Source: an uncultured Bacteroidales bacterium (lineage in GTDB: Bacteria > Bacteroidota > Bacteroidia > Bacteroidales > P3). Taken from it: DNA of 64,000 bases. The position numbers and the translations under genes are program-made. The notes below the pieces were generated by a model, which was not told the DNA's origin, did no database searches, and saw only the letters and a list, made by a program, of their open reading frames with translations. Below are positions 13,254-60,023 of this stretch, piece after piece (positions within the stretch are counted from its first letter, which is position 1; the number at the start of each line of letters is the position of its first letter). Location: positions 62,001 to 126,000 of the forward strand of contig ONBB01000012.1 of NCBI GenBank assembly GCA_900315935.1, read 5' to 3'.

Positions 13254-13280
13254 GGTTATAGGTTAAAGGTTATAGGTTAT
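13254..13280 (+). repeat. GGTTAtA heptamer array abutting the ispH start
   Basis: Four consecutive 7-bp units (GGTTATA, GGTTAAA, GGTTATA, GGTTATG) make up the entire spacer. The last unit supplies the AT of the ispH start codon. The same array recurs at 14114-14140 before recF. Confidence 0.85.
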
Positions 13281-14139
13281 GGAGATACGTATCGACGAAC
13301 AGGCAGGCTACTGCTTCGGAGTGGTCAAGGCCATCGGTGCCGCCGAGGAGGTGCTCTCGCAGGAGGGTACCCTCTACTGTCTGGGCGACATCGTGCATAA
13401 CAGTGCCGAGGTGGAGCGCCTCAAGAGCAAGGGGCTACGCGTCATCGACCATTCGATGCTCCCCTCCCTCGCCGGCAGCAAGGTGCTCATCCGTGCCCAC
13501 GGCGAGCCGCCCGAGACCTACCGCACCGCAGAGCGGTTGGGTATCAACCTGATAGATGCCACCTGCCCCATCGTGCTGGCCCTGCAGCAGCGTATCCGCA
13601 AGGGGTACGACGAGATGCAGCCCGTCAATGGGCAGATTGTCATATTCGGCAAGCCCGGCCATGCCGAGGTGGTGGGCCTCACGGGCCAGACTGGCGGCAC
13701 CGCCCTCATCGTCAGCCATCCCGAGGATATAGCCGCCATCGATTTCAGCCGCCCCATCCGCCTTTACTCGCAGACCACCAAGAGCCGCGAGGAGTACCGC
13801 CAGCTTATCGGCAACATAGAGGCGCGCCTGCCCGAGGGGGCCGACTTTGTGGCCTACGATACCGTCTGCAACCGCGTGGCCAACCGCGCCCGCGAGCTGG
13901 AGACCTTTGCCCGCAGCGTCGATGTGCTCCTCTTTGTGGCCGGTTCCAACAGCAGCAACGGGCGCTACCTCTACGAGTACTGCCGCAAGGTGCAGCCCGC
14001 CACCCACCTCATCGCCTCGCCCGACGACCTCCAGGTCGAGTGGTTCCGTGGCGCCAATTCGGTGGGCATCAGCGGCGCCACCTCCACACCCCGCTGGCTC
14101 ATGGAGGAGATAGGGTTCAGGTTAAAGGTTATAGGTTAG
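13279..14139 (+). CDS. ispH: 4-hydroxy-3-methylbut-2-enyl diphosphate reductase
   Basis: A 286-residue iron-sulfur enzyme, the last step of the MEP isoprenoid pathway, producing IPP and DMAPP from HMBPP. The three cluster cysteines are visible in GYCFGV (~12), DATCPIV (~95) and DTVCNRV (~195). The substrate-binding histidines (IVHNSAEV, RAHGEPP, PGHAEV) and the VAGSNSSNG and SGATSTPRWL motifs are all present. The final residues FRLKVIG are encoded by the GGTTAAA/GGTTATA heptamer array, so the repeat has supplied the C-terminus. recF starts at the very next base. Confidence 0.96.
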   Translation: MEIRIDEQAGYCFGVVKAIGAAEEVLSQEGTLYCLGDIVHNSAEVERLKSKGLRVIDHSMLPSLAGSKVLIRAHGEPPETYRTAERLGINLIDATCPIVLALQQRIRKGYDEMQPVNGQIVIFGKPGHAEVVGLTGQTGGTALIVSHPEDIAAIDFSRPIRLYSQTTKSREEYRQLIGNIEARLPEGADFVAYDTVCNRVANRARELETFARSVDVLLFVAGSNSSNGRYLYEYCRKVQPATHLIASPDDLQVEWFRGANSVGISGATSTPRWLMEEIGFRLKVIG

Positions 14140-14140
14140 A
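14114..14140 (+). repeat. Heptamer array at the ispH end and recF start
   Basis: GGTTAAA, GGTTATA and GGTTAGA units span the last ispH codons, its stop codon and the first base of recF. Confidence 0.8.
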
Positions 14141-15234
14141 TGATATTGGATAGGCTCATACTCAGCAACTTCAAGAACTACGTCGAGGCCGACGTGGCCC
14201 TCTGCGGCAATGTCAATTGCTTCGTGGGCAACAACGGCACCGGCAAGACCAATCTGCTCGATGCCGTCCACTACCTCGCCTTCTGCAAGAGCTACTTCAA
14301 CCCCGTCGACAGCCAGAACATACGCCTCGGCGCCGACTTCTTCGCCATCCATGGCCACTTCGGCCCCGATGTGGCCAGCTGCACCCTCCGCCAGGGGCAG
14401 GCCAAGCAGATGCGCTGGAACAAGAAGCAGTACAAGACCCTAGCCGAGCACATCGGCAAGGTGCCGCTGGTCATGGTCTCGCCCAACGACCAGCAGCTCA
14501 TCACCGGTGGCAGCGAGCTGCGCCGCCGCTTTGCCGACAGCGTCATCTCGCAGGTCGACCGCGACTACCTCAACCACCTCATCGCCTACAACAAGGCCCT
14601 CGACCAGCGCAACCGCCTGCTCAAGCAGATGTGGGACGACCGCCAGTGGGACCCCGCCATGGTCTCCCTCTGGGATGCCCAGCTCGAGCTGCATGGCAAG
14701 GTCATCTATGCCGGTCGCGAGGCGTTCATCGCTGACTTCCAGCCCCTCTTCGAGGAATACTACCACTGGATTGCCGGCAGCGCCGAACCGGGAGCCATCG
14801 CCTACCAGCGCGACGACCGTCCGCTGATGCAGCAGCTGGAGGCCGCCCGCCAGGCCGACCGCTACGCCCAGCACACCACCGTCGGGCCGCACAAGGACGA
14901 CTTCCTCCTCACGCTGGCCGCGGATATGCCCGTCAAGCGCTTCGGCTCGCAGGGGCAGCAGAAGAGCTTCGCCCTGGCGTTGAAGCTCGCGCAGTTCCAG
15001 TACCTGCTCAACCATTCGGGCACCAAGCCCATCCTGCTGCTCGACGACATCTTCGACAAACTGGACATGGACCGCATACGGCAGCTCATCGCCCTGGTGG
15101 GCAGCGACCGCTTCGGCCAGGTACTCCTCACCGACACCCAGCCCGGCCGCGTGCAGGCCCTCTTCGACGACCTGCCCCACCTCGAGCACCGCCTCTTCCA
15201 AGTAGCCCACGGCCAAATAACTCATAACTCATAA
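14140..15234 (+). CDS. recF: DNA recombination and repair protein RecF
   Basis: A 364-residue SMC-like ATPase that loads RecA at single-strand gaps with RecO/RecR. It begins MILDRLILSNFKNY, followed by Walker A GNNGTGKTNLLDA (~30-42), the RRRFAD segment, the ABC-type signature FGSQGQQKSFALALKLAQ and Walker B ILLLDDIFDKLD. The TVGPHKDD motif is also present. It is slightly shorter at the C-terminus than some homologues. The last residues (ITHNS) and the stop come from the ATAACTC repeat. No gap separates it from ispH, and DUF721 follows by 15 bp, the usual recF neighbour in Bacteroidota. Confidence 0.96.
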   Translation: MILDRLILSNFKNYVEADVALCGNVNCFVGNNGTGKTNLLDAVHYLAFCKSYFNPVDSQNIRLGADFFAIHGHFGPDVASCTLRQGQAKQMRWNKKQYKTLAEHIGKVPLVMVSPNDQQLITGGSELRRRFADSVISQVDRDYLNHLIAYNKALDQRNRLLKQMWDDRQWDPAMVSLWDAQLELHGKVIYAGREAFIADFQPLFEEYYHWIAGSAEPGAIAYQRDDRPLMQQLEAARQADRYAQHTTVGPHKDDFLLTLAADMPVKRFGSQGQQKSFALALKLAQFQYLLNHSGTKPILLLDDIFDKLDMDRIRQLIALVGSDRFGQVLLTDTQPGRVQALFDDLPHLEHRLFQVAHGQITHNS

Positions 15235-15244
15235 CTCATAACTG
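15217..15244 (+). repeat. ATAACTC heptamer array at the recF end
   Basis: Four 7-bp units (ATAACTC x3, ATAACTG). The recF stop codon lies inside the third unit, so the array spans coding and spacer sequence. Confidence 0.85.
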
Positions 15245-15249
15245 AACAG

Positions 15250-15545: not shown

Positions 15546-17186
15546 ATGAAAAACCTCTGGCGTGCCCTCATGATGGTCCGGCGTTGCAGCCCGCGCTCCT
15601 TCTGGCTGCGTGTCTTCTACGTAACGATCGAGAGCCTGCTGCCGCTGGTCAACCTATACATCCTCAAGCTGCTCATCGACAGTGTCCAGCAGCCCGGTTT
15701 CCAGTTTGCTGCCTTCGGTTTTCAGCTCTCCACGCTCCACCTCCTCCTTGCCATGTGCGGTGTCTTCCTGCTCAACCGTATAGTCCACGCGCTCAGCGGC
15801 ATCAACAACGACATCCTCGGGCAGCGCCTCATCGACCACGTCAGCGACCTGCTCCAGCACCAGTCGGCGCGGCTCGACATGCAGTACTACGACACCCCCG
15901 CCTACCACGACACCTTCCACCGTGCCCAGCAGGAGGCCACCTTCCGCCCGCTGCAGGTGCTTTCCAACTTCATGGCCCTCGGCGGCTCGCTGCTCTCCAT
16001 CGCCGGTGTGGTGGCCATGCTGGTCTCCGCCTCGTGGTGGGTCATCGTGGTGATGATTGCGGCCGTGTTGCCGGGATTCGGCGTGCGGCTCTACAAGGCG
16101 CGCAGCATCTACCGCTTCCGCCGCGACAACACCCAGCTCTACCGCCGCACCTCCTACTACGGCGCCCTGCTCACCGGCCGCGACTTCGCCAAGGAACTCC
16201 GCTCGCTGCGCCTGGCGCCGCTCTTCCGCATGCGTTTCGTGGATGCGCGCAAGCATCTGGTAGGCCGCCTGTTGGCCATCTCGCGCCGCCTGGGTGCGCT
16301 CGACATCGCCTGTGGCCTCATCGAGGCCGCCGCCATGTTCGCCGTCGTCTGGCTGTTGCTGCAGCAGACCCTCGCCGCCGCCATCACCGTCGGCACCTTC
16401 GTCATGCTCTTCGAGGCTTTCCGCCGCGGCCAGGGCTACCTATCGTCGCTCGTGGGCGGCGTGGCCGGCCTCTACGACAACCGCCTCTTCGTGGGCAACC
16501 TCTTCGAGTTCCTCGACCTCCAGCCCTCCATCCTTTCGCCCGCCCGCCCCGTACCCTTCCCCGGGAGCGTGCAGCAGGTGGAGTTCCGCGACATCACCTT
16601 CCGCTACCCCGACATGCAACGCAACGTGCTCGAGCATTTTACCCTCACCGCCCGACGGGGCGAAATCACCCGCATCGACGGCCGCAACGGCTTCGGCAAG
16701 AGCACTTTGGTAAAACTCCTCCTGCGCCTCTACGACCCCAACCAGGGGCAGGTGCTCGTCGACGGCACCGACCTCCGCCAGTTCGCCCTCGACGACCTCC
16801 GCTCCCACCTCGGCGTGCTCTTCCAGGACTTCGTCCGATACAACCTCACCGCCCGCGAAAACATCGTCCCCGCCGACACCCAAAATCCCGAATTTGAAAT
16901 TCAAAATTCAAAATTCAAAATTCAAAATTCAAATTTATTAGATTTCGTCGACCGCCTACCCCAAGGGCTCGACACCCAGCTCGGACGCCTCTTCGACGGC
17001 GGCAGCGAACTCAGCATGGGCCAGTGGCAGCGCCTGGCCATAGCCCGCGCCGTCGCCTCCGACGCCCCCATACTCCTCTTCGACGAACCCACCGCCTGGC
17101 TCGACCACACCGCCCGCCAGCACTTCCAGGCCATGCTCGACGCCCTCGCCCCCCACAAAATCATCATCCTCATCACCCATTCGTAA
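15546..17186 (+). CDS. ABC exporter (fused permease and ATPase), short C-terminus
   Basis: A 546-residue half-transporter with transmembrane segments over residues ~1-310 and a nucleotide-binding domain after it. Walker A reads GRNGFGKSTLVKLLLR. The Q-loop lies in GVLFQDFVRYNLT, the signature is LSMGQWQRLAIARA, Walker B is ILLFDEPTAWLD, and the H-loop is in ILITHS, where the protein stops. Homologues usually continue 20-40 residues past the H-loop, so the end looks clipped. The helical subdomain contains an in-frame CAAAATT repeat encoding EIQNSKFKIQNSN. Substrate unknown. Last gene of the lpdA-recF run; element B follows. Confidence 0.88.
   Translation: MKNLWRALMMVRRCSPRSFWLRVFYVTIESLLPLVNLYILKLLIDSVQQPGFQFAAFGFQLSTLHLLLAMCGVFLLNRIVHALSGINNDILGQRLIDHVSDLLQHQSARLDMQYYDTPAYHDTFHRAQQEATFRPLQVLSNFMALGGSLLSIAGVVAMLVSASWWVIVVMIAAVLPGFGVRLYKARSIYRFRRDNTQLYRRTSYYGALLTGRDFAKELRSLRLAPLFRMRFVDARKHLVGRLLAISRRLGALDIACGLIEAAAMFAVVWLLLQQTLAAAITVGTFVMLFEAFRRGQGYLSSLVGGVAGLYDNRLFVGNLFEFLDLQPSILSPARPVPFPGSVQQVEFRDITFRYPDMQRNVLEHFTLTARRGEITRIDGRNGFGKSTLVKLLLRLYDPNQGQVLVDGTDLRQFALDDLRSHLGVLFQDFVRYNLTARENIVPADTQNPEFEIQNSKFKIQNSNLLDFVDRLPQGLDTQLGRLFDGGSELSMGQWQRLAIARAVASDAPILLFDEPTAWLDHTARQHFQAMLDALAPHKIIILITHS
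16896..16937 (+). repeat. CAAAATT heptamers inside the ABC ATPase domain
   Basis: Four exact CAAAATT units (16902-16929) with partial units on both sides. They are read in frame as a seven-residue period (IQNSKFK) between the Q-loop and the signature motif. Confidence 0.9.
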
Positions 17187-29570: not shown

Positions 29571-29687
29571 GGGTGTAAGGTTTAGGGTTTAGGGTGTAAG
29601 GTTTAGGGTTTAAGGTTTAAGGTTTAATGTTTAGGGTTTAAGGGGAGGGGGCACGCCTGTAAACCTTAAACCCTAAACTTTAAACTT
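29571..29687. repeat. GGTTTAG heptamer array with a 15-bp inverted arm
   Basis: About nine GGTTTAR-type 7-bp units run from 29576 to 29643, followed after a GC-rich 20-base loop by an inverted set. GTTTAGGGTTTAAGG (29629-29643) pairs perfectly with CCTTAAACCCTAAAC (29664-29678). It fills the whole spacer between the zinc-ribbon gene and hutH. Confidence 0.85.
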
Positions 29688-30509
29688 TTATTTCTCCAAC
29701 TGCGCTTTGGCTTTGGCGGCGATGTCGTCGTCGACGAGGATGCGGCCGCAGTTCTCGCATACGATGACTTTCTTGTGCATCTTGATTTCCATCTGGCGCT
29801 GGGGGGGGATGGCGCTGAAGCAGCCACCGCAGGCGTCGCGGTCGATGGTAACGACGGCCAGGCCGTTGCGGGCGGCGTTGCGGATGCGCTTGTAGCCGGT
29901 GAGGTAGCGCTCGTCGATGTACTGCTCCTGCTCCTTCGACTTGGCCAGCAGGCGGGCTTCGTCCTTCTCGGTCTCGGCGATGATGGAGGTCAGCTCCTCG
30001 CGCTTGGCGTCGAGGTCCTTGGTGCGGTTCTCCACAAGGGTCTTGGCGGCCTCGATGTTGGACTTGAGCTCCTTGACCTTGGCGGCGCCCTCTTTGTTCT
30101 TGCGCTCGCAGAGCTGTATCTCGAGGTTCTGGAATTCAATCTCCTTGGCCAGCGACTCGAACTCGCGGTTGTTGCGCACGTTTTCCTGCTGCTTCTGGTA
30201 CTTCTTGATCATCTCCTCGTGGTCGGCCACCTCGGTCAGGCGGGTCTTGTTGGCGGCTTCGGTCTCTTTGATTTCGGTGGTGATGTTCTCGATGCGGGTG
30301 TTGAGGCCGGCGATTTCGTCCTCAAGGTCCTGCACGGCCTGGGGCAGTTCGCCACGGATAATCTGAATCTTGTCGATTTCGCTGTCGACGCTCTGCAGGG
30401 TGTAGAGTGCCACGAGGCGTTTTTCGATGGCGAGGTCGACATCGGGACGTAGGATGACGGGGGCTTCGGCCTGGGTTTCGGCTTTTTTGGTGCTGACTTT
30501 CTTTGCCAT
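29688..30509 (-). CDS. Coiled-coil protein with C-terminal C4 zinc ribbon
   Basis: A 273-residue cytoplasmic protein: a variable N-terminus, a long coiled-coil hairpin (residues ~45-195; heptad-rich EDEIAGLNTRIENITTEIKE and KSNIEAAKTLVENRTKDLD), then a C4 zinc ribbon with DACGGCFSAIPP and ENCGRILVDD. This is the DUF164/CdsZ-like family found across bacteria, with a proposed nucleic-acid or chaperone role that is not settled. It lies 28 bp downstream of the NIF3 gene on the - strand, a common pairing in Bacteroidota. Confidence 0.88.
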   Translation of the reverse strand: MAKKVSTKKAETQAEAPVILRPDVDLAIEKRLVALYTLQSVDSEIDKIQIIRGELPQAVQDLEDEIAGLNTRIENITTEIKETEAANKTRLTEVADHEEMIKKYQKQQENVRNNREFESLAKEIEFQNLEIQLCERKNKEGAAKVKELKSNIEAAKTLVENRTKDLDAKREELTSIIAETEKDEARLLAKSKEQEQYIDERYLTGYKRIRNAARNGLAVVTIDRDACGGCFSAIPPQRQMEIKMHKKVIVCENCGRILVDDDIAAKAKAQLEK

Positions 30510-30537: not shown

Positions 30538-31341
30538 CTATATATAACGCACGATGCTTTCCTGGCATGAGGAAATTCGGCATGCAAAGTTACTAAATTT
30601 TTCTGATATGCGGCGAGAAATTATTTCTTTGGCAAACTGTTCGGTCTCGTAGTGGCCCGCGTCGACGAGGATGATGCGTCCCTCGGCGCGCTGGAAGTCG
30701 TGGTATTTGAGGTCGGCGGTGAGGTAGAGGTCGGCGCCGGCGGCGATGGCATCGGGGATGAAGTGCGAGCCGCTGCCACCGCAGAGGGCGACTTTCTGTA
30801 TGAGGAGTGAGGTGTGGGGAGTGGTGAGCGGGGAGGTGCGGAGGGTGGGGATGCCCAGTATCTCTTTGACTTTCTGCAGGAATGCCTCGGCGGGCATGGG
30901 CTCGGGCAGCAAGCCTACCATGCCGGCGCCGGTGTCGGCACCGAGGGGGCTGAGGATGCGGCAGTCGTGCAGATTGAGCCGTTCGGCTAGGGCGCCGTTG
31001 ACGCCCCAGGGCAGGTTGTCGAGGTTGGTGTGGGCGGCGTAGACGGCGATGCGGTGCTGCGCGAGGGCAAGCACCATGCGGCCGGTCTCGTTGCCGTCGG
31101 TGATGCGGCGCAGGCCGGAGAAAATAAAGGGGTGGTGGGTAACGATTAGGTTGAGGCCCAGCGCGATGGCTTCATCGACTACGGAAGGGGTGAGGTCGAG
31201 GGCGACGAGGGCACCGCGGTAGGGCTGTTGGCTGTCGCCGAGAAGGAAGCCTGCGTTGTCGTAGTCCTCCTGTAGCTCGGGGCGGAAGGTGTCGTCGAGC
31301 CAGGCGACGAGGTCGTGAATGGTGGGGGTGTTGGTTGTCAT
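30538..31341 (-). CDS. NIF3-like dinuclear metal protein
   Basis: A 267-residue NIF3/YbgI family protein, which forms hexamers with two metal ions per subunit; its biochemical role is uncertain. Metal ligands are visible: HH in VTHHPFIFSG (~66-67), Asp in AAHTNLDNL (~104) and His/Glu in VDAGHYETEQFAKE near residue 230. The C-terminal EKFSNFACRIS strand is usual. Between IPTLRT and QKVALCGGSG there is a loop (SPLTTPHTSLLI) encoded by an imperfect 7-bp array, the kind of in-frame addition seen in several other genes here. Confidence 0.92.
   Translation of the reverse strand: MTTNTPTIHDLVAWLDDTFRPELQEDYDNAGFLLGDSQQPYRGALVALDLTPSVVDEAIALGLNLIVTHHPFIFSGLRRITDGNETGRMVLALAQHRIAVYAAHTNLDNLPWGVNGALAERLNLHDCRILSPLGADTGAGMVGLLPEPMPAEAFLQKVKEILGIPTLRTSPLTTPHTSLLIQKVALCGGSGSHFIPDAIAAGADLYLTADLKYHDFQRAEGRIILVDAGHYETEQFAKEIISRRISEKFSNFACRISSCQESIVRYI
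30801..30835 (-). repeat. Imperfect heptamers inside the NIF3 gene
   Basis: Five related 7-bp blocks on the + strand (TGAGGAG, TGAGGTG, TGGGGAG, TGGTGAG, CGGGGAG) are read in frame on the - strand as SPLTTPHTSLLI. The sequence resembles the CTCACTC array at 54237-54264. Confidence 0.65.
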
Positions 31342-37459: not shown

Positions 37460-37470
37460 CCGTAGCAACA

Positions 37471-37494
37471 GATCAACGTATCAACCTATCAACA
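37471..37494 (+). repeat. TATCAAC-type units before rnfC
   Basis: GATCAAC, GTATCAAC and CTATCAAC in a row fill most of the rnfB-rnfC spacer. Confidence 0.6.
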
Positions 37495-37502: not shown

Positions 37503-38831
37503 ATGAAGACTTTCAAAATGGGTGGTGTCCACCCCGAAGAAAACAAGATATCGAACGATGCCGCCATACAGGTGATACCGGTAGGTGCCCAGATGGTGGT
37601 CCTGATGAACCAGCACCTCGGTGCCCCCGCCACCCCCATCGTCCAGAAGGGCGACAAGGTGAAGGTGGGCCAGCTTATAGGCGAGGCCCAGGCCTTCATG
37701 TGCGCCAATGTCCACTCGCCCGTCAGCGGCACGGTGGCCAAGGTGGAACCCGTCAAGGACGCCTTCGGCCTCCTCAAGCCCGCCGTCCACATCACCGTCG
37801 AGGGCGACGAGTGGATGGATACCATCGACCGCACGCCCGACATCAAGCGCGAGTGCACGCTTGAGCCCGCCGCCGTGGTGGCCAAGCTCAAGGAGATGGG
37901 CATCGTGGGCCTCGGCGGCGCCACCTTCCCCGCCCACATCAAGTACAGCGTGCCCGAAGGCAAGAAAGCCGAGTACCTCATCATCAACGCCGCCGAATGC
38001 GAGCCCTACCTCACCTCCGACTACCGCGTCATGATGGAGCATGCCGAGGAGATCTGCATCGGCATCAGCATCCTGCGCAAGGCTCTGGGAGTCCCCAACG
38101 CCTACGTCGGCATCGAGAGCAACAAGCCCCAGGCCATTGCCCGCATGCAGGAGGTGGCGCGCCAGTTCGAGGGCATCGTTATCGAGCCCCTCAAGGTGAA
38201 GTACCCGCAGGGCGCCGAGAAGCAGCTCATCAACGCCGTTACCGGCCGCAAGGTACCCAGCGGCAAGCTGCCCATCGACGTGGGCTGCGTGGTCTCCAAC
38301 GTCGGCACCACCTTTGCCGTCTACGAGGCCATCCAGAAGAACAAACCCCTCATCGAGAACATACTGACCGTTACCGGCAAGAAGCTGCCCACGCAGCACA
38401 ACTGCCTGGTGCGCATCGGCACCACCTTTGCCGACATCGTCAAGCACACCATCGGCGAGCTGCCCGCCACCACCGGCAAGGTCATCTCCGGCGGCACCAT
38501 GATGGGCAAGGCCATCGTCAACCTCGACGCCCCCACGGTGAAGGGCAACGCCAGCGTGCTGGTGATGGACGAGGGCGAGGCGCGCCGCGCTCCCGAGACC
38601 GCCTGCATCCGTTGCGGCAAGTGCATGAATGCCTGCCCGATGGGGCTGGAGCCCTACCTCTTCTCGTCGCTGGTCAAGGCCGGCCGCACCGAGGAGGCGC
38701 AGCAGAGCAACATCCTCGACTGCATCGAGTGCGGCTGCTGCTTCTTCAGCTGCCCCGCCAACAAGCCGCTGACCGACGAGATACGCCTCGGCAAGAACCG
38801 CGTCCGCGCCATGATGGCGGCCAAAAAGTAG
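37503..38831 (+). CDS. rnfC: Rnf complex NADH-binding subunit C
   Basis: A 442-residue peripheral subunit that transfers electrons between the Fe-S chain and NAD(H) using FMN. The N-terminal KTFKMGGVHPEENK barrel-sandwich domain is followed by the flavin/NADH-binding core (EMGIVGLGGATFPAHIKY, IINAAECEPYLTSDYR). A SLBB-like region comes next, and then two 4Fe-4S clusters (ACIRCGKCMNACPMG, CIECGCCFFSCPANK). Length is typical of Bacteroidota RnfC without a long C-terminal tail. The start at 37503 follows from the conserved N-terminus; the longer open frame lies inside rnfB. Confidence 0.96.
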   Translation: MKTFKMGGVHPEENKISNDAAIQVIPVGAQMVVLMNQHLGAPATPIVQKGDKVKVGQLIGEAQAFMCANVHSPVSGTVAKVEPVKDAFGLLKPAVHITVEGDEWMDTIDRTPDIKRECTLEPAAVVAKLKEMGIVGLGGATFPAHIKYSVPEGKKAEYLIINAAECEPYLTSDYRVMMEHAEEICIGISILRKALGVPNAYVGIESNKPQAIARMQEVARQFEGIVIEPLKVKYPQGAEKQLINAVTGRKVPSGKLPIDVGCVVSNVGTTFAVYEAIQKNKPLIENILTVTGKKLPTQHNCLVRIGTTFADIVKHTIGELPATTGKVISGGTMMGKAIVNLDAPTVKGNASVLVMDEGEARRAPETACIRCGKCMNACPMGLEPYLFSSLVKAGRTEEAQQSNILDCIECGCCFFSCPANKPLTDEIRLGKNRVRAMMAAKK

Positions 38832-38871
38832 TTAAGAGTTAAGAGTTAAAAGTTAAGAATTAAGAGTTATA
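38830..38871 (+). repeat. AGTTAAG heptamer array between rnfC and rnfD
   Basis: Six 7-bp units of AGTTAAG type. The first overlaps the last two bases of the rnfC stop codon. Confidence 0.85.
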
Positions 38872-39840: not shown

Positions 39841-39915
39841 GTAGTTAAGGAGACAGTAGTTAAGTAGTTAAGTAGTTAAGGTTTTATCATCATATAAACT
39901 TATCAACCTATCAAC
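39841..39915 (+). repeat. GTAGTTAA octamers and TATCAAC units before rnfG
   Basis: Four GTAGTTAA units (39841-39848 and 39856-39879) and two TATCAAC-type units (39900-39915). The first octamer starts directly after the rnfD stop. The same octamer is repeated nine times at 54805-54876. Confidence 0.85.
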
Positions 39916-39921
39916 AACGTT

Positions 39922-44818: not shown

Positions 44819-44843
44819 TACCCCGCAGGCGTGGTTCAGGCGA

Positions 44844-44957
44844 GGCCGAAGAGAGGAAGAAGAGAGGAAGAAGAGGGTGCCTCCAACCCGCTGTGAAACA
44901 GCGGGTTGTATTTTGACGAAAATGGGCCTTTCCGGCACTTTTTTTCAATTTTTCCGC
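44844..44957 (+). repeat. Dispersed element B, copy 4
   Basis: GGCCGAAGAGAGGAAGAAGA with the GAGGAAGAAGA block doubled, then GGGTGCCTCC. A variable stem (AACCCGCTG/CAGCGGGTT) follows, then GGGCCTTTCCGGCAC-T7-CAA. It lies between the terminator and the dnaG promoter. Confidence 0.72.
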
Positions 44958-45063: not shown

Positions 45064-47046
45064 ATGATAGACCAGGAGACCATACAACGCATCATGGACG
45101 CCGCCCGCATCGAGGAGGTCATCGGCGATTTCGTCTCGCTCAAGAAGCGCGGCGCCAACCACATCGGCTGCTGCCCCTTCCACAACGAGAAGACCCCCTC
45201 GTTCTATGTCTCCCCCTCCAAGGGCATATACAAGTGCTTCGGCTGCGGCGAGGCGGGCGATGTCGTCGCCTTCCTCAAGAAGCACGAGCACTTCACCTAC
45301 CCCGAGGCGCTGCTCTACCTGGCCAAAAAGTACAACATCGAGGTGCGCGAGGAGGAGCAGACCGAAGAGCAGCGCGAACGGCAGAACGAGCGCGACGCCC
45401 TGTTCCACGTCTCCGAGTTCGCCCAAAAGTACTTCGACCACCTGCTGTGGGAGGACGAAATGGGGCGCGCCATCGGCCTCTCCTACTTCCACTCCCGCGG
45501 CCTGAGCGACGAAATCATCAAGCGCTTCGGCCTCGGCTACTGCCTCGACGAGTGGACCAACTTCACCGACCACGCCCGCCGCAGCGGCTATAGCGACGCC
45601 GTGCTCGAGAAGACCGGCCTCACCATCTTCAAGGAGGATACCGGCAAGAGCTACGACCGCTTCCGCGGCCGCGTGATGTTCCCCATCTACAGCATCTCGG
45701 GCCGCGTGCTGGGTTTCTCGGGCCGCATCCTCTCGTCCGAGAAGCAGGCGGCGAAATACGTCAACTCGCCCGACAGCGACATCTACAACAAGAGCCGCAT
45801 CCTCTACGGCCTCTATCAGGCGCGCCAGGCCATCGCCAAGGCCAACAAGTGCTACCTCGTGGAGGGCAACCTCGACGTTATCTCGATGCACCAGTCGGGT
45901 GTGGAGAACACCGTGGCCAGCTGCGGCACCAGCCTCACCGTGGAGCAGATACGCCTCATCAAGCGCTACACGCCCAACGTTACCGTCCTCTACGACGGCG
46001 ACTCGGCCGGCATCAAGGCCGCCCTCCGTGCCGTCGACCTGCTCTTCACCGAAGGCATGCACGTCCGTGTCGTACTCTTCCCCGATGGCGACGACCCCGA
46101 CTCCTACGCCCAGCGGCATGGGTCGGCCGCGCTGCAGGACTACCTGGCCCAGCACGAGGACAACTTCGTCATGTTCAAGACCCGCGTGCTGCTCGACTCC
46201 GTCAAGAGCGACCCCATACGCAAGGCCGAGCTGGTCAAGGAGACCGTCCAAACCATCGCCCTGGTGCCCGACCTGCTGGAGCGTACCGAGTACATCTCCC
46301 AGTGCGCCCACCTCCTTGACGTGCCCGAAGAGGCCCTGGCCTCCGAGCTCTCCAAGGCCATCAACCGCAACCGCCAGAAAGCCTACGAGGGCCAACCCCA
46401 GGCCCCAGCCCCCCAATCGCCCCAGGATACTCAGAACATTCAGAATACTCCGATTATTCAGAATGTTCAGAATACTCAGAATATTCAGACTCCCCCTCCC
46501 GACCCGCGCGAGAAGCAGCTCATCTCCCTCCTGCTCAATTTCGGCGAGACCTCCATCGAACTGGCCGTTCCCGACGAGCGCGGCGTCAACCAGTACTACA
46601 CCTATCCCATCTACGAACTCATCGTGAACGACCTGCAGGCCGAGGAACTCACCTTCTCGCACCCCCTCTGCCAGCGCATCTACGAGCACTATGCCGCGGC
46701 CGTCGATGCCGGCCAGCCGGCCGATGCCACCCACTTTATCACCGTCGACGACGAGGAGCTGCGCCAGTTCGCCATCTCGCTTATGGTCGACACCTACCGC
46801 ATCAGCGACTCGTGGAAGAAGAAGCAGATAGTGGTCCCCAAGCTCGACGACAACCTGCAGCTGGCCACCACCGAGGCACTGTTCAATTTCAAGCTCAAGT
46901 GCCTCGACGACCGCATTGCCGACAACGCGCAGCGTATGCGCCGCGCCACCTCCGACGACGAGCTCTTCGTCCTCCTCGAAGAGAAGAAGCAACTCATAGC
47001 CCTGCGGCGCGACATAGGGCTCGCCCTGCACCGCGTCATCAGTTAA
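45064..47046 (+). CDS. dnaG: DNA primase with a repeat-expanded linker
   Basis: A 660-residue primase. The N-terminal CHC2 zinc finger (HIGCCPFHNEKTPSF ... YKCFGCGEAGD) is followed by the catalytic TOPRIM core (YLVEGNLDVISMHQSG, LYDGDSAGIKAALRA, PDGDDPDSYAQ). The C-terminal helicase-interaction domain lies after residue ~500. The linker between them (residues ~453-477) is made of 9-bp repeats encoding QNI/QNT tripeptides. Start is taken at 45064 because upstream codons lie within the promoter. It leads a cluster with a sigma-54 activator, aroA and miaA. Confidence 0.96.
   Translation: MIDQETIQRIMDAARIEEVIGDFVSLKKRGANHIGCCPFHNEKTPSFYVSPSKGIYKCFGCGEAGDVVAFLKKHEHFTYPEALLYLAKKYNIEVREEEQTEEQRERQNERDALFHVSEFAQKYFDHLLWEDEMGRAIGLSYFHSRGLSDEIIKRFGLGYCLDEWTNFTDHARRSGYSDAVLEKTGLTIFKEDTGKSYDRFRGRVMFPIYSISGRVLGFSGRILSSEKQAAKYVNSPDSDIYNKSRILYGLYQARQAIAKANKCYLVEGNLDVISMHQSGVENTVASCGTSLTVEQIRLIKRYTPNVTVLYDGDSAGIKAALRAVDLLFTEGMHVRVVLFPDGDDPDSYAQRHGSAALQDYLAQHEDNFVMFKTRVLLDSVKSDPIRKAELVKETVQTIALVPDLLERTEYISQCAHLLDVPEEALASELSKAINRNRQKAYEGQPQAPAPQSPQDTQNIQNTPIIQNVQNTQNIQTPPPDPREKQLISLLLNFGETSIELAVPDERGVNQYYTYPIYELIVNDLQAEELTFSHPLCQRIYEHYAAAVDAGQPADATHFITVDDEELRQFAISLMVDTYRISDSWKKKQIVVPKLDDNLQLATTEALFNFKLKCLDDRIADNAQRMRRATSDDELFVLLEEKKQLIALRRDIGLALHRVIS
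46423..46494 (+). repeat. 9-bp repeats in the dnaG linker
   Basis: Eight 9-bp units related to CAGAATACT/CAGAATATT, in frame, giving QDTQNIQNTPIIQNVQNTQN. They are clearly more AT-rich than the flanking coding sequence. Confidence 0.9.
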
Positions 47047-51838: not shown

Positions 51839-52002
51839 GTCAGCTGCCAGCAGCCGTCTCGGCTGCGTACCCGGGGGCACCTTATTATTACGTTAATTGA
51901 CGGTGCAGAGGCACAGAATGTTGTTCATATGCGTGGAAAGCAATATATATGCTGAAAATGAGTTCTTTATCATTGCGCTGTGTTCTTTCCGCCGTCTGCA
52001 AT

Positions 52003-52080
52003 GTACCATAAGCTTCCATATCCTTCCAGTGCCTTTGTATTCCCCTACCGTTCCCCTACCATTCCCCTACCGTTCCCCTA
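52003..52080 (+). repeat. Dispersed element A, copy 3
   Basis: The same leader and four 11-bp units (TTCCCCTACCR). It ends 36 bp before the -33 box of the DUF5686 gene promoter. The upstream bases 51839-52002 show nothing else clear. Confidence 0.85.
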
Positions 52081-52115
52081 GACGGTCTCACCCCCCGATG
52101 GGGGAATGAGTTTTT

Positions 52116-52164: not shown

Positions 52165-54798
52165 ATGAATATTGACAATATGTTGAAATATAGATATATA
52201 GTCCGTATACTGCTGCTTGTCTCGATTTTCAATTTCCATTTTTCAAATTCCCACGCCCAGCAGGGTGCCACCGGCCTGCAGGGCAAGGTGGTGGATGCCG
52301 TAACGGGCGAGGCGGTGCCCTTCGTGCAGATAGTCTTCGCCGGCACCCTCACCGGCACTTCCAGCGATATGGACGGCAAGTTCAGCCTGACCAACACCGA
52401 GGGCCACACCTCGGTTTCGTTCCGCATGATGGGCTACGAGCCCCTGACGATGAAGGTGGAGCGCGGCAAGGTGCAGAAGCGTGCCACGGTGAAGCTCACG
52501 CCCCACGCCAAGACGCTGGGCGAGGTAACCGTTACCGCCAAGCGCGGCAAGGACCGCTACCGCCGCAAGAACAACCCTGCCGTAGAGCTGGTCAAGAAGG
52601 TCATCGACCGCAAGGAGCAGAATAGGGTAGAGGCCCTGCCGCGCTGGCGGAGGGATGTGTACGAGCGCATGTCGATGAGCCTCGACGACTTCCGGCCCGA
52701 CTTCGAGAAGAAGCGCATCTGGCGCAAGCTGAACTTCCTGGAGAAATACATCGACCGCACCGAGTTCGACGACACGCCGATACTGGTCATCTCGATGCGC
52801 GAGTCGTTCAAGGAGCAGTCCTACCGCCAGAAGCCGCGCCAGCTGCGCACCCTCACCACGGGGCACCGCATGGAGGGCGTGGACGAGGTGCTGACCGACG
52901 AGGGCATCGACGAGAACCTGGCGGCCATGTTCATGCCGGTGGACATCTACGATGCCGACATCGAGCTGATGCTCAACCACTTCGTTAGCCCTCTCAACGG
53001 CCTCATCGGCACCACCTTCTACAAGTACTACATCACCGACACCCTCGAGGTGGAGGGGCAGCGGTGCGTGGAGCTCTCCTTCGTGCCGGCCAACAAGCAG
53101 AGCTACGGCTTCACCGGCCAGATGTACATCTCGCTCGACGCCGACAGTACCTTCGCCCTGACGCGCTATGTGATGACGGTGTCGAAGTATGTGAATCTCA
53201 ACTTCGTGCGCGACCTTTCGATAGTGCAGTCCTTCCAGCGCGACTCGTCGGGCCGCTGGCTTCCCTACCGCTGCGACACCTACGGCCGCCTCTCCATCCA
53301 CAAGAAGATACAGGAAATCTATGTCCACCAGATGCGCGTCTACACCGGCTACCAGGTGGGCGACACCGTGCGCCTGCTGCCGGACAGCCTCTACAGCGCC
53401 TTCACCAGCGAGGCCACCCTGCCCAAAGGGCAGCTCAAGCGCTTCAAACGTCAGTTCAACGAGGGTCGCCCCGTGCAGCTCACCGCCAAGCAGACGGTAT
53501 TGGACAGCATGTGGGTCGAGCTGCGCCGCCTGCCCACTTTCCGCGCCATCAAGGCCGTGGGCGAGACCATGGTCAGCGGCTACATTCCCACCCACCGCCA
53601 GCGCAAGGAGAGCCGTTTCGACATCGGTCCGGTATTCAACATCCTCAGCCACAACCACCTCGAAGGCTGGCGTCTGCGCCTGGGCGGCATGACCACCGCG
53701 CGCCTGCATCCGCAGCACTTCCTCGAGGGCTATGTGGCCTACGGCTTCCGCGACAGGCAGCCCAAGTTCAACGCCACCTACACCTACACCTTCGACGAGA
53801 AGGAGCGCCACAGCCACGAGGGACCCTACAGCAGTGTGAGCCTCATGGCGGGCTACGACCTACAGACCCCCGGCCAAGCCTACGACAACTTCGACCGCGA
53901 CAACATCATGATGTCGTCCGACAAGGAGTTCAAGGCGCAGTACGTGGCCCAGGCCCAGTTGCGGCTGCGCAAGGAATGGAAGAGTCATGTGCGGTTCGAC
54001 TCGTGGCTCGCCGGCCGCCGCTACGAGCCGGCCGGCCTGCTGCGGTATGAGCGCTACCTCGAGGATGGCTCGCTGCAGCCCGTCGACTTCTTCTCCGAGG
54101 CCGAGTTGCGTGTGGGGTTGAGCTTTTCGCCCAATGTGGCCAGCGGCACCCGCCGCCGCGAGAAGCAGAGCAACCTGCGGCGCGACGCACCCACCATTTC
54201 CCTCAGCCACACCGTCGCCCTCCTCGCCAACAACGCCTCACTCCTCACTCCTCACTCCTCGCTCTACCACGCCACCGACTTCGCCGCCGACAAGCGCTTC
54301 TGGCTCGGCGCCTTCGGCCATATCGACGCCAAGCTGGCCGCCGGCGTGGTGTGGAACCGCGTGCCCTATCCCCGCCTCTACATCCCCAGCGGCAATGCCG
54401 GTCTCTTCCTCTCGTCCAACGCCTTCAACACCATGCAGCCCATGGAGTTCATCATGGACCAGTATGTGGCTTTTTTCGCCACCTACCACCTCAAAGGCTG
54501 GATTCTCAACCGCGTGCCCCTCGTCAACCGTCTGCGCCTGCGCGAGGTGGTGGGTTTCAACATCCTCTATGGCGGCCTCTCCACCAAGAACGACCCCGCC
54601 CACGACCCCGCCGGCCTCTACCGCTTCCCGGAGAACACCATCCCCTTCGGCACCAAACCCTACATGGAGTACTCGGTCGGCGTGGAGAACATACTGTCGT
54701 TCCTGCGGGTCGACTTCGTGCGCCGCCTCACCTACACCGAGGGCATGGAGGGCTGGGACCGCTGGTTCATACGCCTCGACCTCAAGTTTGCTCTTTAG
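52165..54798 (+). CDS. DUF5686 outer-membrane protein with CarboxypepD-like domain
   Basis: An ~877-residue outer-membrane protein. Signal YIVRILLLVSIFNFHFSNSHAQQ, then a carboxypeptidase-regulatory-like fold (LQGKVVDAVTGEAVPFVQIV ... MMGYEPLTMKVE, residues ~30-110). The large DUF5686 region follows, with a conserved YERMSMSLDDF segment and a C-terminal barrel ending in LDLKFAL. The frame is open to a TTG at 52144, but that lies in the promoter. ATGs at 52165 and 52180 are both plausible. Residues near NNASLLTPHSSLY come from an in-frame CTCACTC repeat. The signal peptide includes CAATTT-like repeats shared with the next gene. Confidence 0.88.
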   Translation: MNIDNMLKYRYIVRILLLVSIFNFHFSNSHAQQGATGLQGKVVDAVTGEAVPFVQIVFAGTLTGTSSDMDGKFSLTNTEGHTSVSFRMMGYEPLTMKVERGKVQKRATVKLTPHAKTLGEVTVTAKRGKDRYRRKNNPAVELVKKVIDRKEQNRVEALPRWRRDVYERMSMSLDDFRPDFEKKRIWRKLNFLEKYIDRTEFDDTPILVISMRESFKEQSYRQKPRQLRTLTTGHRMEGVDEVLTDEGIDENLAAMFMPVDIYDADIELMLNHFVSPLNGLIGTTFYKYYITDTLEVEGQRCVELSFVPANKQSYGFTGQMYISLDADSTFALTRYVMTVSKYVNLNFVRDLSIVQSFQRDSSGRWLPYRCDTYGRLSIHKKIQEIYVHQMRVYTGYQVGDTVRLLPDSLYSAFTSEATLPKGQLKRFKRQFNEGRPVQLTAKQTVLDSMWVELRRLPTFRAIKAVGETMVSGYIPTHRQRKESRFDIGPVFNILSHNHLEGWRLRLGGMTTARLHPQHFLEGYVAYGFRDRQPKFNATYTYTFDEKERHSHEGPYSSVSLMAGYDLQTPGQAYDNFDRDNIMMSSDKEFKAQYVAQAQLRLRKEWKSHVRFDSWLAGRRYEPAGLLRYERYLEDGSLQPVDFFSEAELRVGLSFSPNVASGTRRREKQSNLRRDAPTISLSHTVALLANNASLLTPHSSLYHATDFAADKRFWLGAFGHIDAKLAAGVVWNRVPYPRLYIPSGNAGLFLSSNAFNTMQPMEFIMDQYVAFFATYHLKGWILNRVPLVNRLRLREVVGFNILYGGLSTKNDPAHDPAGLYRFPENTIPFGTKPYMEYSVGVENILSFLRVDFVRRLTYTEGMEGWDRWFIRLDLKFAL
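54237..54264 (+). repeat. CTCACTC heptamers inside the DUF5686 gene
   Basis: Four 7-bp units (CTCACTC x3, CTCGCTC after an offset), in frame, encoding SLLTPHSSL. Similar in wording to the array in the NIF3 gene. Confidence 0.85.
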
Positions 54799-57841: not shown

Positions 57842-57850
57842 GTTTGGGAC

Positions 57851-57886: not shown

Positions 57887-57930
57887 AGGAGCGGTTTTGG
57901 ACGGATTTGGATGGGTAAGGGGCTATAGGC

Positions 57931-57990: not shown

Positions 57991-57991
57991 T

Positions 57992-58474
57992 TCAAAGCAT
58001 CGCCACGAGGCGCTCCAGGTACTGGCGGTCGGTGTCGTCGAAGGTGGCCAGCTCGCGGCTGTCGATGTCAAGCACGGCCACCACTTCGTCGCCCTCGAAC
58101 ACCGGCACCACTATCTCGCTGCGGCTCTCGCTGCTGCAGGCTATGTGGCCGGGGAACAGCTCCACGTCGGGCACCACCACCGTGCGCCGCTCCTTCCACG
58201 CCGTGCCGCACACGCCGCGGCCGTAGCCGATGTGCATGCAGGCCAGCGGGCCTTGGAAGGGGCCCAGGACTAGTTCTGAGTTGCCGGTTGCGGCAGCCGA
58301 CCTCATAACTCCTAACTCATAATTCATAACTCTGTAAAACCCTGTCCACCAGAAGCCGAACTCGCTGTGCAGCAGTGCGCAGACGTTGGCCATCTTGGCT
58401 ATCATGTCCGCCTCGCCTTCGCAGAGGGCCTTCACCTGCGGCAGCAGGGCTATATATCTGTCTTCCTTTGTCAT
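57992..58474 (-). CDS. msrC: Free methionine-(R)-sulfoxide reductase (GAF domain)
   Basis: A 160-residue GAF-fold enzyme that reduces free methionine-R-sulfoxide with thioredoxin. The three active-site cysteines are kept in LACMHIGYGRGVCGTAW and HIACSSESRSEIVVP, followed by VLDIDSRELATFDDTD. Between FWWTGFYRV and ELVLGPFQGPL there is an insertion of ~17 residues (MNYELGVMRSAAATGNS) encoded partly by an ATAACTC heptamer array; homologues join these strands directly. The enzyme may tolerate it as a loop. Single gene between a degraded element A copy and a repeat-rich spacer. Confidence 0.9.
   Translation of the reverse strand: MTKEDRYIALLPQVKALCEGEADMIAKMANVCALLHSEFGFWWTGFYRVMNYELGVMRSAAATGNSELVLGPFQGPLACMHIGYGRGVCGTAWKERRTVVVPDVELFPGHIACSSESRSEIVVPVFEGDEVVAVLDIDSRELATFDDTDRQYLERLVAML
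58305..58332 (-). repeat. ATAACTC heptamers inside msrC
   Basis: Four 7-bp units (ATAACTC, CTAACTC, ATAATTC, ATAACTC) on the + strand. The same unit forms the recF end at 15217-15244. Confidence 0.88.
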
Positions 58475-58486
58475 TTGCAGTCTGTT

Positions 58487-58775
58487 TTGTCTCCCGCTTC
58501 GCGAGATCTTGTAAATCTTATGGATTGTCTTGGATATTTTGTCTGTATCAGAAAATCTTTTTAAATCTAAGGGAATCTTTTCTGGATTTCCAGGATCTCC
58601 GCCGAGGCGGGGCGGTGGATTTGTCTCCTGCTTCGCGAGATCTTGTAGATCTTGTAGAAAATGGATTGTCTTGGATTTCCAAGATTTGCAATGTCTGGTA
58701 TGAGAAATCTTTTAAATCTAATGTAATCATTTCCATGATTTTCAGGATTTCCGCCGATAGGCGGGGAGATTATGT
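58487..58775. repeat. Two ~130-bp degenerate direct repeats
   Basis: GTCTCCYGCTTCGCGAGATC, then TTGTARATCTT, ATGGATTGTCTTGGAT, AAATCTTTTTAAATCT-like and CCGCCGA.GGCGGGG words occur in the same order at about 58487-58615 and 58620-58770. This fills the msrC-GH29 spacer. No gene is supported there. Confidence 0.7.
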
Positions 58776-60023
58776 CTATCTGTTCTTTTTCATCTTCCTG
58801 ACGGTGGCATAAGGGTACTCGTCGGTGAGGGTTATCTCGTAGCGGTGCTTGCCGTCCTTGCTCTGCGTGTAGCGGCGGTTGCCGTCGCAGTAGGGTGAGA
58901 GGGGGCGGGTGCCGTAGATGGCGTATCCGTACACATCGAGCCACTTGCCAATCTCCTCCATGCGCCGCAGTGCCTCGGGGGGCAGGTTGCCGTCGGCATC
59001 GGGACCCACGTTGAGTAATAGGTTGCCGCCCTTGGCCACCACGTCGCACAGGAGGTGTATCAGCTCGCGGGTGCTCTTGTACTGGTCGCGAGGCGAATAG
59101 CTCCAGCTGTCGCCCATCGTCATGCAGGTCTCCCAGGGGTAGGGCAGGAGGGTGTCGGGCACCTGCTTCTCGGGGGTGCGGTAGTTTTCATACCGGCCGC
59201 CCACGCTGCGGTCCACGATGATGGTGCGGGGATTGCGCTCGCGCGCGATGGAGGCCAGGCGGTGCATGTCGAGTTCCTGCACCTGTCCGCTGCAGCCCAG
59301 CCAGGGGCGTGTCTCCTCGTTGACGCTCCATGCCGGGCGCACCCAGCCGCCGTCGAGCCATAGGATGTCGATGGGGCCGTAGTTGTGGGTCAGTTCGTGT
59401 ATCTGGTTGTAGGTGAACTCTTGATACTTCTTCCAGCGGTCGGGGTGGTCGGCGATGGTGTAGTTCACGTTGCGGTCGGGCGTGGCCCACTCGTGCGCCC
59501 AGTAGTCGTCGCAGTGCCAGTCGGGCTTGCTGAAGTAGAGGCCGGTCCAGAAGCCCGCGGCGCGGAAGGCATCCACCACGCCGCGCGTGAAGTCGGTCCG
59601 CGCCGGGCTGTGCATGCTGGTGTAGTCGGTATGCCGGCTGTCGAACATGCAGTAGCCGTCGTGGTGCTTGGTGGTGAAGACCACGTATTTCATGCCGGCC
59701 TTCTTGGCCGCCTCGGCCCACCCCTGCGGGTCGAAGTGCTTGGGGGCGAAGGTCTTGCTCAGCGCCCAGTAGGCGCGCTTGTAGTCCTCGTAGGGGGCTC
59801 CGTCGCGGTTGAGCCACGGCTCGTTGCATAGGTTCCAGCTCTCCACGCAGCCCCACTGCGCGTAGATGCCCCAGTGCATCATAAAGCCAAATTTGAGGTC
59901 CTGCCACTCCGCGATGCGCTGCACTATCAGCGGGTCGCTCTCGGGGATGCTGTCGTGCTGGGCCTTCACACTACCCATTAAACCCATCAGGCCCAATAAA
60001 CCTATTAGTATTGTCTTTTTCAT
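58776..60023 (-). CDS. Alpha-L-fucosidase (GH29)
   Basis: A 415-residue secreted glycoside hydrolase of family 29. Signal KKTILIGLLGLMGLMGSVKA. Motifs: KFGFMMHWGIYAQ, KYVVFTTKHHDGYCMFDS (substrate-binding histidines), the catalytic nucleophile region GPIDILWLDGGW (Asp ~222), and GGNLLLNVGPDADGNLPPEA. The enzyme removes fucose from host or plant glycans in the periplasm. The signal is built from a GLM tripeptide repeat coded by 9-bp units. Its start overlaps the stop of the GH3 gene (ATGA), so the two glycosidases form one operon. Confidence 0.93.
   Translation of the reverse strand: MKKTILIGLLGLMGLMGSVKAQHDSIPESDPLIVQRIAEWQDLKFGFMMHWGIYAQWGCVESWNLCNEPWLNRDGAPYEDYKRAYWALSKTFAPKHFDPQGWAEAAKKAGMKYVVFTTKHHDGYCMFDSRHTDYTSMHSPARTDFTRGVVDAFRAAGFWTGLYFSKPDWHCDDYWAHEWATPDRNVNYTIADHPDRWKKYQEFTYNQIHELTHNYGPIDILWLDGGWVRPAWSVNEETRPWLGCSGQVQELDMHRLASIARERNPRTIIVDRSVGGRYENYRTPEKQVPDTLLPYPWETCMTMGDSWSYSPRDQYKSTRELIHLLCDVVAKGGNLLLNVGPDADGNLPPEALRRMEEIGKWLDVYGYAIYGTRPLSPYCDGNRRYTQSKDGKHRYEITLTDEYPYATVRKMKKNR
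59974..60009 (-). repeat. 9-bp repeats in the fucosidase signal peptide
   Basis: Four related 9-bp units (CCCATTAAA, CCCATCAGG, CCCAATAAA, CCTATTAGT on the + strand), in frame, coding the GLL/GLM tripeptides of the signal core. Confidence 0.75.

Follow-up and report, generated by a model that had tools for sequence, protein, structure and literature searches.

Short tandem arrays whose units differ between species at the same operon spacers in a genus of uncultured Bacteroidales

Heptanucleotide long simple sequence repeats, described by Mrazek and co-workers (2007, as quoted in PMC4679880 and PMC4692102), have been followed in two systems close to the one reported here. In the available text of Rehm (2015), Xanthomonas repeats lie between the same genes in two species, vary considerably in length and sequence, and include one inverted example (PMC4692102). 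The accessible part of MacGregor (2015) describes TAACTGA repeats in Cyanobacteria and Bacteroidetes that are found near gene starts, show indels in steps of seven, occur alongside other heptamers, and are absent at the matching spacer of close relatives (PMC4679880). Our subject is a set of short tandem arrays, above all those of 7-bp and 8-bp units, in a 64,000-nucleotide stretch from an uncultured Bacteroidales bacterium (assembly GCA_900315935.1, contig ONBB01000012.1, positions 62,001 to 126,000), which we call the window, and in other genomes of the same genus. A preliminary description of the window, made from its letters alone, had listed many arrays of 7 to 9 bp in spacers and genes and had proposed an active process that makes or spreads them. 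We find that related species often carry different repeats at the same spot, so that some process must keep making and replacing arrays. To the interpretation that arrays are rapidly born and lost by slippage and fold-back template switching, with some of the seeds coming from other arrays in that genome and with selection pruning the products, we assign a probability of about 0.5.

The genome that holds the window (2.29 Mb in 31 contigs; the focal genome below) was read over 844,798 bases (37%), its close relative G083, which is 78-93% identical in the main aligned blocks, over 453,463 bases, and the genus, for which 120 genomes are at hand, over 2,126,122 bases for heptamer counts. The window was scanned with Tandem Repeats Finder (TRF) and with a mismatch-tolerant array scan (periods 6-11, threshold score at least 13), with 100 dinucleotide shuffles as the null. 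The mismatch-tolerant scan identified 17 window arrays (nine of 7 bp, two of 8 bp, one of 9 bp, one of 6 bp and four of 11 bp) as against a mean of 0.04 per shuffle, and exact period-7 runs of at least 12 occurred six times as against 0.01 in dinucleotide shuffles. The focal genome contained 78 seven-bp, 24 eight-bp, 20 nine-bp, 12 ten-bp, 46 eleven-bp and 7 six-bp arrays, one shuffle giving none; the corresponding numbers for G083 were 70, 4, 8, 16, 24 and 4, and its shuffle gave two. These counts rule out a chance origin. At a score of at least 13 the genus samples held 252 heptamer arrays, and stretches of five genomes from other families of the same order (163 kb) held no heptamer array and two 8-bp arrays. 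The arrays have the properties of long simple sequence repeats, namely a unit of 5-11 nt repeated above chance and a prominent period of 7.

The comparison with shuffled sequence, in which equal density would have refuted the preliminary description, places the arrays far above the null in the window, the focal genome and G083, and TRF recovers most of the arrays where they had been reported. Also upheld are 7-bp arrays within open genes, at 16891 (MsbA-like ABC exporter), 30801 (NIF3), 54233 (DUF5686), 54924 (signal peptide) and 58302, the recurrence of the unit ATAACTC at the recF end (15217) and, in a weaker form, inside a GAF-domain (msrC-like) gene (58302), and the presence of GTAGTTAA at two distant spacers (39855 and 54804), to which further focal-genome sites can be added. 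The 9-bp coding arrays that it had listed fared unevenly: the one in dnaG (46423-46489) is strong, that in the fucosidase gene (59973-60007; TRF score 35, 65% matches, missing from the mismatch-tolerant scan) is borderline, and neither TRF nor the mismatch-tolerant scan detected a 9-bp array in the M17 aminopeptidase gene (17445-18914), the sole aminopeptidase among the proteins scanned. As all searches were made in draft genomes, each in 20 to 600 contigs, one could suppose that the arrays are artefacts of assembly. We regard this as extremely improbable, given that 250 of the 252 genus heptamer arrays are shorter than 100 bp and can be spanned by ordinary reads, that reading frames remain open, and that Flavobacterium, Chryseobacterium and Nostoc are among the isolates whose genomes contain the same unit.

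Comparison of orthologous sites revealed how the arrays differ between species. Among the 102 period-7 and period-8 arrays of the focal genome, 22 could be anchored on both sides in G083, which carried the same unit in five cases, another unit in seven, another period in two and no array in eight. In the opposite direction 36 of 74 G083 arrays were anchored, with four, six, three and 23 cases, respectively. Two rows of these comparisons are weak (54804, and L285 10971, a poor match) and two places are counted twice (L291 12621/12708 and L062 12596/12617); 54804 was scored as another period because an adjoining TTTTCAA array falls inside the aligned segment. Three chosen sites (the end of recF, the spacer that precedes the NqrB/RnfD gene and the one that follows it) were each compared over 30 genus loci, the focal genome included. 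Two-sided anchors retained 13, 16 and 16 species, of which 7, 7 and 8, respectively, carried an array. After NqrB the units were GTAGTTAA, AACACTG, GGTTTAA, TATCAACA (twice), ATAAAGG, ACTAGTAGG and ACTAAAC; hence, periods 7, 8 and 9 occur at one spacer, and the unit agreed in 2/28 species pairs and the period in 9/28. Pairs with the same unit amounted to 10/21 at the recF end and 6/21 before NqrB. The spacer after the next gene beyond the NqrB site held arrays in none of 16 anchored species. We take the neighbours of NqrB/RnfD to be nqr genes from operon context, the profile match being to NqrB/RnfD alone. These results show that unit and period are replaced at orthologous operon spacers. In one case, L130, local birth was seen by eye, as the unit repeats the last codons of the upstream gene.

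The literature searched, largely without subscription papers, contains no report of such replacement of unit or period at orthologous sites or of genome-specific repertoires. Already in print, in the accessible parts of two articles, are the heptamer arrays themselves, their spread over Cyanobacteria and Bacteroidetes, the slippage idea, absence at relatives' spacers, and site sharing in Xanthomonas (PMC4679880, PMC4692102). Like the Xanthomonas and Nostoc heptamers, which are largely intergenic in the text at hand, the present arrays have period 7 and occupy many loci; unlike them, they form a separate repertoire in each of two genomes, and over half of the focal 7-bp arrays lie in genes (PMC4692102). 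Rehm describes, in the same text, one unit type per genome, whereas here several families occur, and several periods at one site in different species (PMC4692102). The TAACTGA system, according to the available sections, has one unit, is largely intergenic and is read as regulatory, and unit swapping is not among the features that they describe (PMC4679880). Exact TAACTGA is found in 0/252 genus heptamer arrays and a unit at most one letter off in 16/252; TAACTGA is itself one letter from GAGTTAT.

The two genomes have distinct sets of units. Arrays of the GGTTTAA type account for 15/78 in the focal genome and 0/70 in G083, and those of the GGTCAGT type for 0/78 and 14/70, with GAGGAGT (13 and 10) and GAAAATT (22 and 28) common to both; the association of genome with repertoire was reached in 0/1000 permutations. 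Such sets are what copying within each genome predicts. Families of at least three arrays took up 71/78 focal heptamer arrays (letter-shuffled null mean 48, maximum 60) and 18/24 octamer arrays (mean 1.8, maximum 7). One strand was free of C or of G in 206/252 heptamer arrays of the genus samples, where 136 were expected and 160 was the maximum in 500 draws. In co-directional spacers of the focal genome the sense strand was C-free in 17 cases, G-free in 20 and mixed in seven. The C- or G-free strand thus has no preferred direction relative to the genes, so that the bias operates at the level of DNA rather than RNA, and transcript-level selection for a C-free strand was not seen.

One alternative is that local sequence simply slips during replication, that AT-rich units of 7 nt without C or without G on one strand are physically favoured, and that the same units recur by convergence; behind it stands the proposal of a polymerase footprint by Mrazek and co-workers (quoted in PMC4679880 and PMC4692102). 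It would account for the dominance of period 7 in samples of other phyla, the local birth at L130, the strand bias, the scarcity of conserved flanks and the exact same unit in cyanobacteria and Bacteroidota. However, it does not readily explain why two genomes of 78-93% identity differ so sharply in repertoire, why three 8-bp families hold 18 of the 24 focal 8-bp arrays, or why arrays pair in inverted orientation, in the genus and in other bacteria. We therefore consider it unlikely, though by no means negligible. Two observations on longer units may be added. Arrays of 9 bp built on the palindrome CTAG (CTAGAAATT and ACTAGTAGG types) lie mostly in spacers (focal L015 5670, L016 3506, L028 5792 and the L130 spacer), and at L071 9940-10010 (G009) a tandem repeat with a 27-bp unit starting GGCTGACGC abuts heptamer arrays.

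Neighbouring arrays of like unit no more than 110 bp apart were inverted in 45 cases and direct in 13 (genus samples, 1,928,122 bases; L312 8843, L312 11027 and one L297 array are placed in two pairs each), and counting next neighbours only gave 43 and 10. When the 38 inverted pairs whose loops measure 3-60 nt were folded, most gave long stems, with z down to -10.7 and four pairs at -0.8 to -1.9. The loop motif CTGACGC was present in 7/38 loops against 0.12 expected (P 7e-11, first of 648 seven-mers), in several species and with differing arm units. For four of the inverted pairs an alignment to relatives was made (Table 1); neither arm was present in the relative, and no target duplication was seen at the four sites. 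At the uvrC and cca-like sites the anchors in the relative enclose different sequence (48 and 26 nt, respectively), and a fifth anchored hairpin outside this alignment, L273 8276-8339, corresponds in the focal genome to 76 nt without an array, which indicates replacement rather than a clean gap. Ten of the 38 hairpins lie in a frame that is open for 240 nt on each side. Eight of these genes were scanned (L070 4603 and L261 14627 were left out): UvrC and MutS2 exceeded their NCBIfam cut-offs, CCA nucleotidyltransferase, MntP-like and ABC-F proteins fell below theirs, and a periplasmic binding protein, a sigma-54 activator and an HD domain were recognized by Pfam. RPE insertions, too, are reported to keep the reading frame.

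In the parts of the literature available, REP, REPIN and RPE elements resemble these hairpins in being dispersed, in forming inverted dimers and in having copies in repair genes, and their CGTC tag is also found within the loop motif here (PMC3733652, PMC3116915). Many-copy hairpins with inverted arms are indeed what we observe. By contrast, the REP-type stem is described there as short and defined, 5-13 bp (PMC3733652), whereas the stem here is a tandem array of varying sequence; no conserved stem with a GTAG or CGTC end tag was found, the stems varying by family and CGTC occurring in a minority of loops. The loop cores may also be compared with the small dispersed repeats of Nostoc, which Elhai reportedly characterized in 2008 as very small mobile elements that frequently sit within heptamer arrays; the core CTGACGC occupies only 7/38 loops here. 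Heptamer-related arms of predominantly inverted orientation, like heptamer-built signal peptides (see below), are not reported in the literature searched. One could envision that the arms belong to a mobile hairpin of this kind, recognised by its structure and loop and moved by a Y1 transposase or similar enzyme. The absence of both arms at relatives' sites, the recurrent loop motif, the in-frame copies in uvrC, cca-like and mutS2 genes, and Y1_Tnp genes in 17/21 genomes would be in keeping with this view. We think that this is improbable: the 45 pairs are found among 368 strong 7- to 9-bp arrays, most of which are unpaired, most families lack a shared flank, target duplication was not seen at the aligned hairpins, and G077 and G118 (both incomplete genomes) have arrays without a Y1_Tnp match.

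Y1 transposase as the motor is accordingly not required on present data. G085, which is 95% complete and has no Y1_Tnp match, has fewer arrays (three 7- or 8-bp arrays over 55 kb), a weak case for Y1, and one focal Y1_Tnp copy (L021, about 5065-5403) has no 7- or 8-bp array within 1 kb. Loss of mismatch repair was dismissed, as MutS1 is over its cut-off in 21/21 genomes. SbcD is over its cut-off in 8/21 genomes, below it in the focal genome and 9/12 congeners, and kept in G023, G118 and G057; in G118 many arrays coexist with SbcD, and G121, G126 and G127 lack both SbcD and, in the stretches read, 7-bp arrays. Loss of SbcD is therefore neither needed nor sufficient, which speaks against loss of the hairpin nuclease SbcCD as the cause (SbcC was not searched).

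Thirteen 7- and 8-bp families with at least four arrays (eight focal, five from G083) were examined for flanks, and ten had none in common. The others, all from G083, gave weak uncorrected matches (GGTGGTG 3/10, GCCCAGC 3/28) or a partial motif (GCTGACG in 4/11 arrays of the CCAGTGG family). Thus, most 7- and 8-bp arrays are not elements with ends, and they are not an ordinary transposon. Strong flanks belong to both families of 10-bp arrays and to two of the four with 11-bp units, and the 10-bp families and main 11-bp family, with their fixed ends, behave unlike the shorter arrays. One dispersed element of about 60 bp, with 25 mostly near-identical copies in the focal bases read (window 580-640, 9700-9800 and 52000-52085) and present in G083 too, consists of three 10-bp direct repeats (CCATAAGCTT, CCATATCCTT, CCAGTGCCTT), TGTA and three 11-bp repeats (TTCCCCTACCG), the 11-bp array being preceded by CTTTGTA in 23/24. 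Many copies are followed by TAnnTTTG, judged by eye, which we take to be promoter-like. The G083 10-bp arrays of CCCTTTCACT form an element family with a defined end, since GTCCTTTCAC or GTCCTCTCAC heads one end in 14/14; its sites include L262 5808-5920, L266 5652-5740 and L274 17584-17690, several are inverted pairs around unrelated loops, and the other genus samples searched held one occurrence, L313. An 11-bp family, CTCTTCTTCCT, has an array at window 44842-44875 and eight more in the focal genome, with GGCTGAT before 4/9.

A purpose-made, simple gene caller placed 43/78 focal heptamer arrays in genes and 35/78 in spacers. Arrays of 7 or 8 bp were present in 35/307 co-directional, 3/53 divergent and 2/33 convergent spacers; at a laxer threshold, 39/162 (24%) of focal co-directional spacers of 30-150 bp, and 20/85 in G083, had a 7- to 9-bp array. 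The excess in co-directional spacers might suggest functional cis elements under selection, either binding sites or unstructured translation leaders, as proposed for the Beggiatoaceae TAACTGA repeats. This seems to us quite improbable, for unit, period and presence vary between species at one site, the focal co-directional spacers show no strand preference, and the 43 genic arrays lie outside spacers. In genes, the unit was stop-free in all frames for 32/43 sense and 8/43 antisense readings in the focal genome and for 36/44 and 11/44 in G083, indicating that translation-stopping arrays are depleted from genes, though some remain. TRF assigned 39/50 nine-bp and 55/61 twelve-bp arrays to coding sequence, as expected of protein-level repeats, and most 9-bp coding arrays are probably different in kind from heptamer arrays; periods divisible by three are thus mostly coding, yet more than half of the seven-bp arrays are coding too.

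Among 71 TTTTCAA-type arrays, 21 begin no more than 90 nt from an ATG in the same frame that has a basic residue close to it and is followed by open codons past the array, and 16 of these appear by eye to form typical signal peptides (for example, MKKTLLIAALFSIFNFQFSILRAQ), four of them in one orthologous gene. The unit TTTTCAA would thereby encode putative signal-peptide cores. Fast-evolving arrays within and between genes, seldom common to close relatives and biased in composition, are described for the archaeal Borgs in the available text (PMC9879509), and frame-keeping genic arrays that turn over between close relatives are what we see here. Borg units are longer (18-36 nt in the examples) and reside on extrachromosomal elements, and the portions at hand mention no inverted arms or genome-wide unit families (PMC9879509); the present arrays, unlike those, are found within or next to core genes of the chromosome (recF, dnaG, uvrC).

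An exact scan of genome contigs for (GAGTTAT)x4, the reverse complement of the recF-end unit, gave at least 117 stretches, and the 80 matches listed were, by title, mostly from Bacteroidota and Cyanobacteria, with Colwellia, a gammaproteobacterial metagenome-assembled genome (MAG), a Syntrophaceae MAG, Marinimicrobia, Elusimicrobia, Ignavibacteria and one archaeal MAG also among them. The preliminary description had likened the arrays to the heptameric STRR repeats of cyanobacteria but had regarded the units as distinct; this was only partly right, since the exact 28-mer is present in a number of cyanobacteria, among them Nostoc, Calothrix and Rivularia, as well as in many Bacteroidota. In 117 loci chosen for GAGTTAT, neighbours were inverted in 66 cases and direct in 19, sometimes around a palindromic core. 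Other units were common across phyla in 14/64 exact comparisons (letter-shuffled mean 4.8, maximum 12), a count biased by the choice of loci for GAGTTAT, and at one mismatch there was no excess (43 versus 38.5). A bolder proposal is that the arrays constitute a self-spreading class of DNA defined by architecture (short period, a strand free of C or G, inverted arms and a loop) and not by sequence. Each genome would amplify its own units, the sets replacing each other at shared sites, and the same process would act in Bacteroidota and Cyanobacteria, adding peptides in frame to the products of repair and translation genes and providing signal peptides. We consider this rather unlikely.

Table 1. 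Arrays of the window and hairpins aligned to relatives (window positions unless a locus is named)
Array	Position	Strand	Site	Detail
7-bp GGTTATA	13248..13280		spacer before ispH/LytB gene	mismatch-tolerant scan; aligned G083 and G094 site only 11-12 nt
short 7-bp AGGTTAA	14119..14138		between LytB gene and recF	TRF score 33; not in mismatch-tolerant scan
7-bp ATAACTC (CATAACT)	15217..15243		recF 3' end	TRF and mismatch-tolerant scan; same site GACCACT in G083, GAACACT in G094
7-bp AATTCAA, in frame	16891..16936	+	ATPase domain of MsbA-like ABC exporter (MsbA model below its cut-off)	alignment: identical in G083, other sequence in G094
7-bp GGTTTAA	29572..29643		hairpin left arm	fold z -3.8
inverted 7-bp TAAACCT	29660..29688		right arm of 29572 hairpin	neither arm in G083, G094 or G038
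7-bp GGAGTGG type	30801..30835		NIF3/DUF34 gene	score 12.4; equal-length GAATTTT-type array in G083
8-bp TATCAACA type	37466..37493		spacer	score 12.2
7-bp AGTTAAG	38830..38869		spacer before NqrB/RnfD gene	mismatch-tolerant scan
8-bp GTAGTTAA	39837..39880		after NqrB/RnfD gene	TRF and mismatch-tolerant scan
weak 8-bp TATCAACA	39885..39916		same spacer as 39837 array	TRF score 36
9-bp CAGAATATT, in frame	46423..46489	+	dnaG	TRF and mismatch-tolerant scan
7-bp CCTCACT, 24-nt in-frame insertion	54233..54264	+	DUF5686 gene	present in G083, degenerate in G094, absent from eight further aligned relatives
8-bp GTAGTTAA	54804..54877		after a stop codon	mismatch-tolerant scan; missing in the six further anchored species; L037, one of these, holds a 7-bp array in that spacer
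7-bp TTTTCAA	54924..54957	+	outer-membrane beta-barrel protein gene	putative signal-peptide core
7-bp ATAACTC type	58302..58332	-	inside GAF-domain (msrC-like) gene	other units there in G083 and G038
aligned hairpin	29572-29688			
aligned hairpin	L273 3549-3653			
aligned hairpin	L273 18686-18790		uvrC	
aligned hairpin	L274 12839-12924		CCA-nucleotidyltransferase-like gene	

Apart from the arrays of Table 1, TRF found two 69-bp repeats at window 57272-57408, which by eye presumably represent a leucine-rich, BspA-like repeat.

Several results weigh against the interpretation that we prefer. Strings of variant units common to different loci exceeded the permuted null only in the GGTTTAA and GAGTTAA sets, which overlap; three other unit families showed no excess, and the longest strings were no longer than in the null. 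Because sharing is so limited, support for copying between loci, and for the copying of whole variant strings in particular, is weak. The persistence of sites is modest: 19 of 42 anchored species (focal genome excluded) carried arrays at the three chosen sites as compared with the baseline of 24%, with a P of 0.002 that ignores both shared ancestry and the choice of sites already holding an array. Orthologous arrays shared their unit in 5/12 cases against 0.146 for random pairs (P 0.02), which points to some inheritance as well. The strand bias of focal octamers was not significant (13/24 versus 9.3 expected, null maximum 16), the sense unit has a stop codon in 11/43 focal arrays called coding, and no enzyme could be tied to the arrays, MutS being present in 21/21 genomes and neither SbcD nor Y1 transposase tracking them. 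The active making or spreading of arrays proposed at the outset is supported by presence and absence among congeners, by repertoire differences and by three periods at one spacer, whereas for copying from place to place, as opposed to birth anew, support is weak.

Presence and absence, replacement of units, inverted arms and the birth at L130 all fit slippage combined with fold-back template switching; the events at the polymerase, the enzymes and copying from same-genome arrays are what we infer from them. In this scheme, 7- and 8-bp arrays would be continually born, lengthened, copied elsewhere and lost within the genus. During replication a nascent strand would slip or fold back, and a short unit, from the strand's own sequence or from another array of the same genome, would be used as a template and then repeated, fold-back yielding inverted arms with a loop. 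Selection would prune the products, so that survivors are found in the spacers of operons and in variable loops of proteins, with a length and orientation that leave the reading frame uninterrupted, and a few arrays may be useful, as TTTTCAA might be as a signal-peptide core.

There is still no consensus on how the heptamer repeats of bacteria, known for many years, arise, and a genus of 120 genomes with differing units at shared sites makes their origin testable by comparison of strains and reads. In the in-frame hairpins and the apparent use of arrays as signal peptides, repeats may be seen becoming protein.

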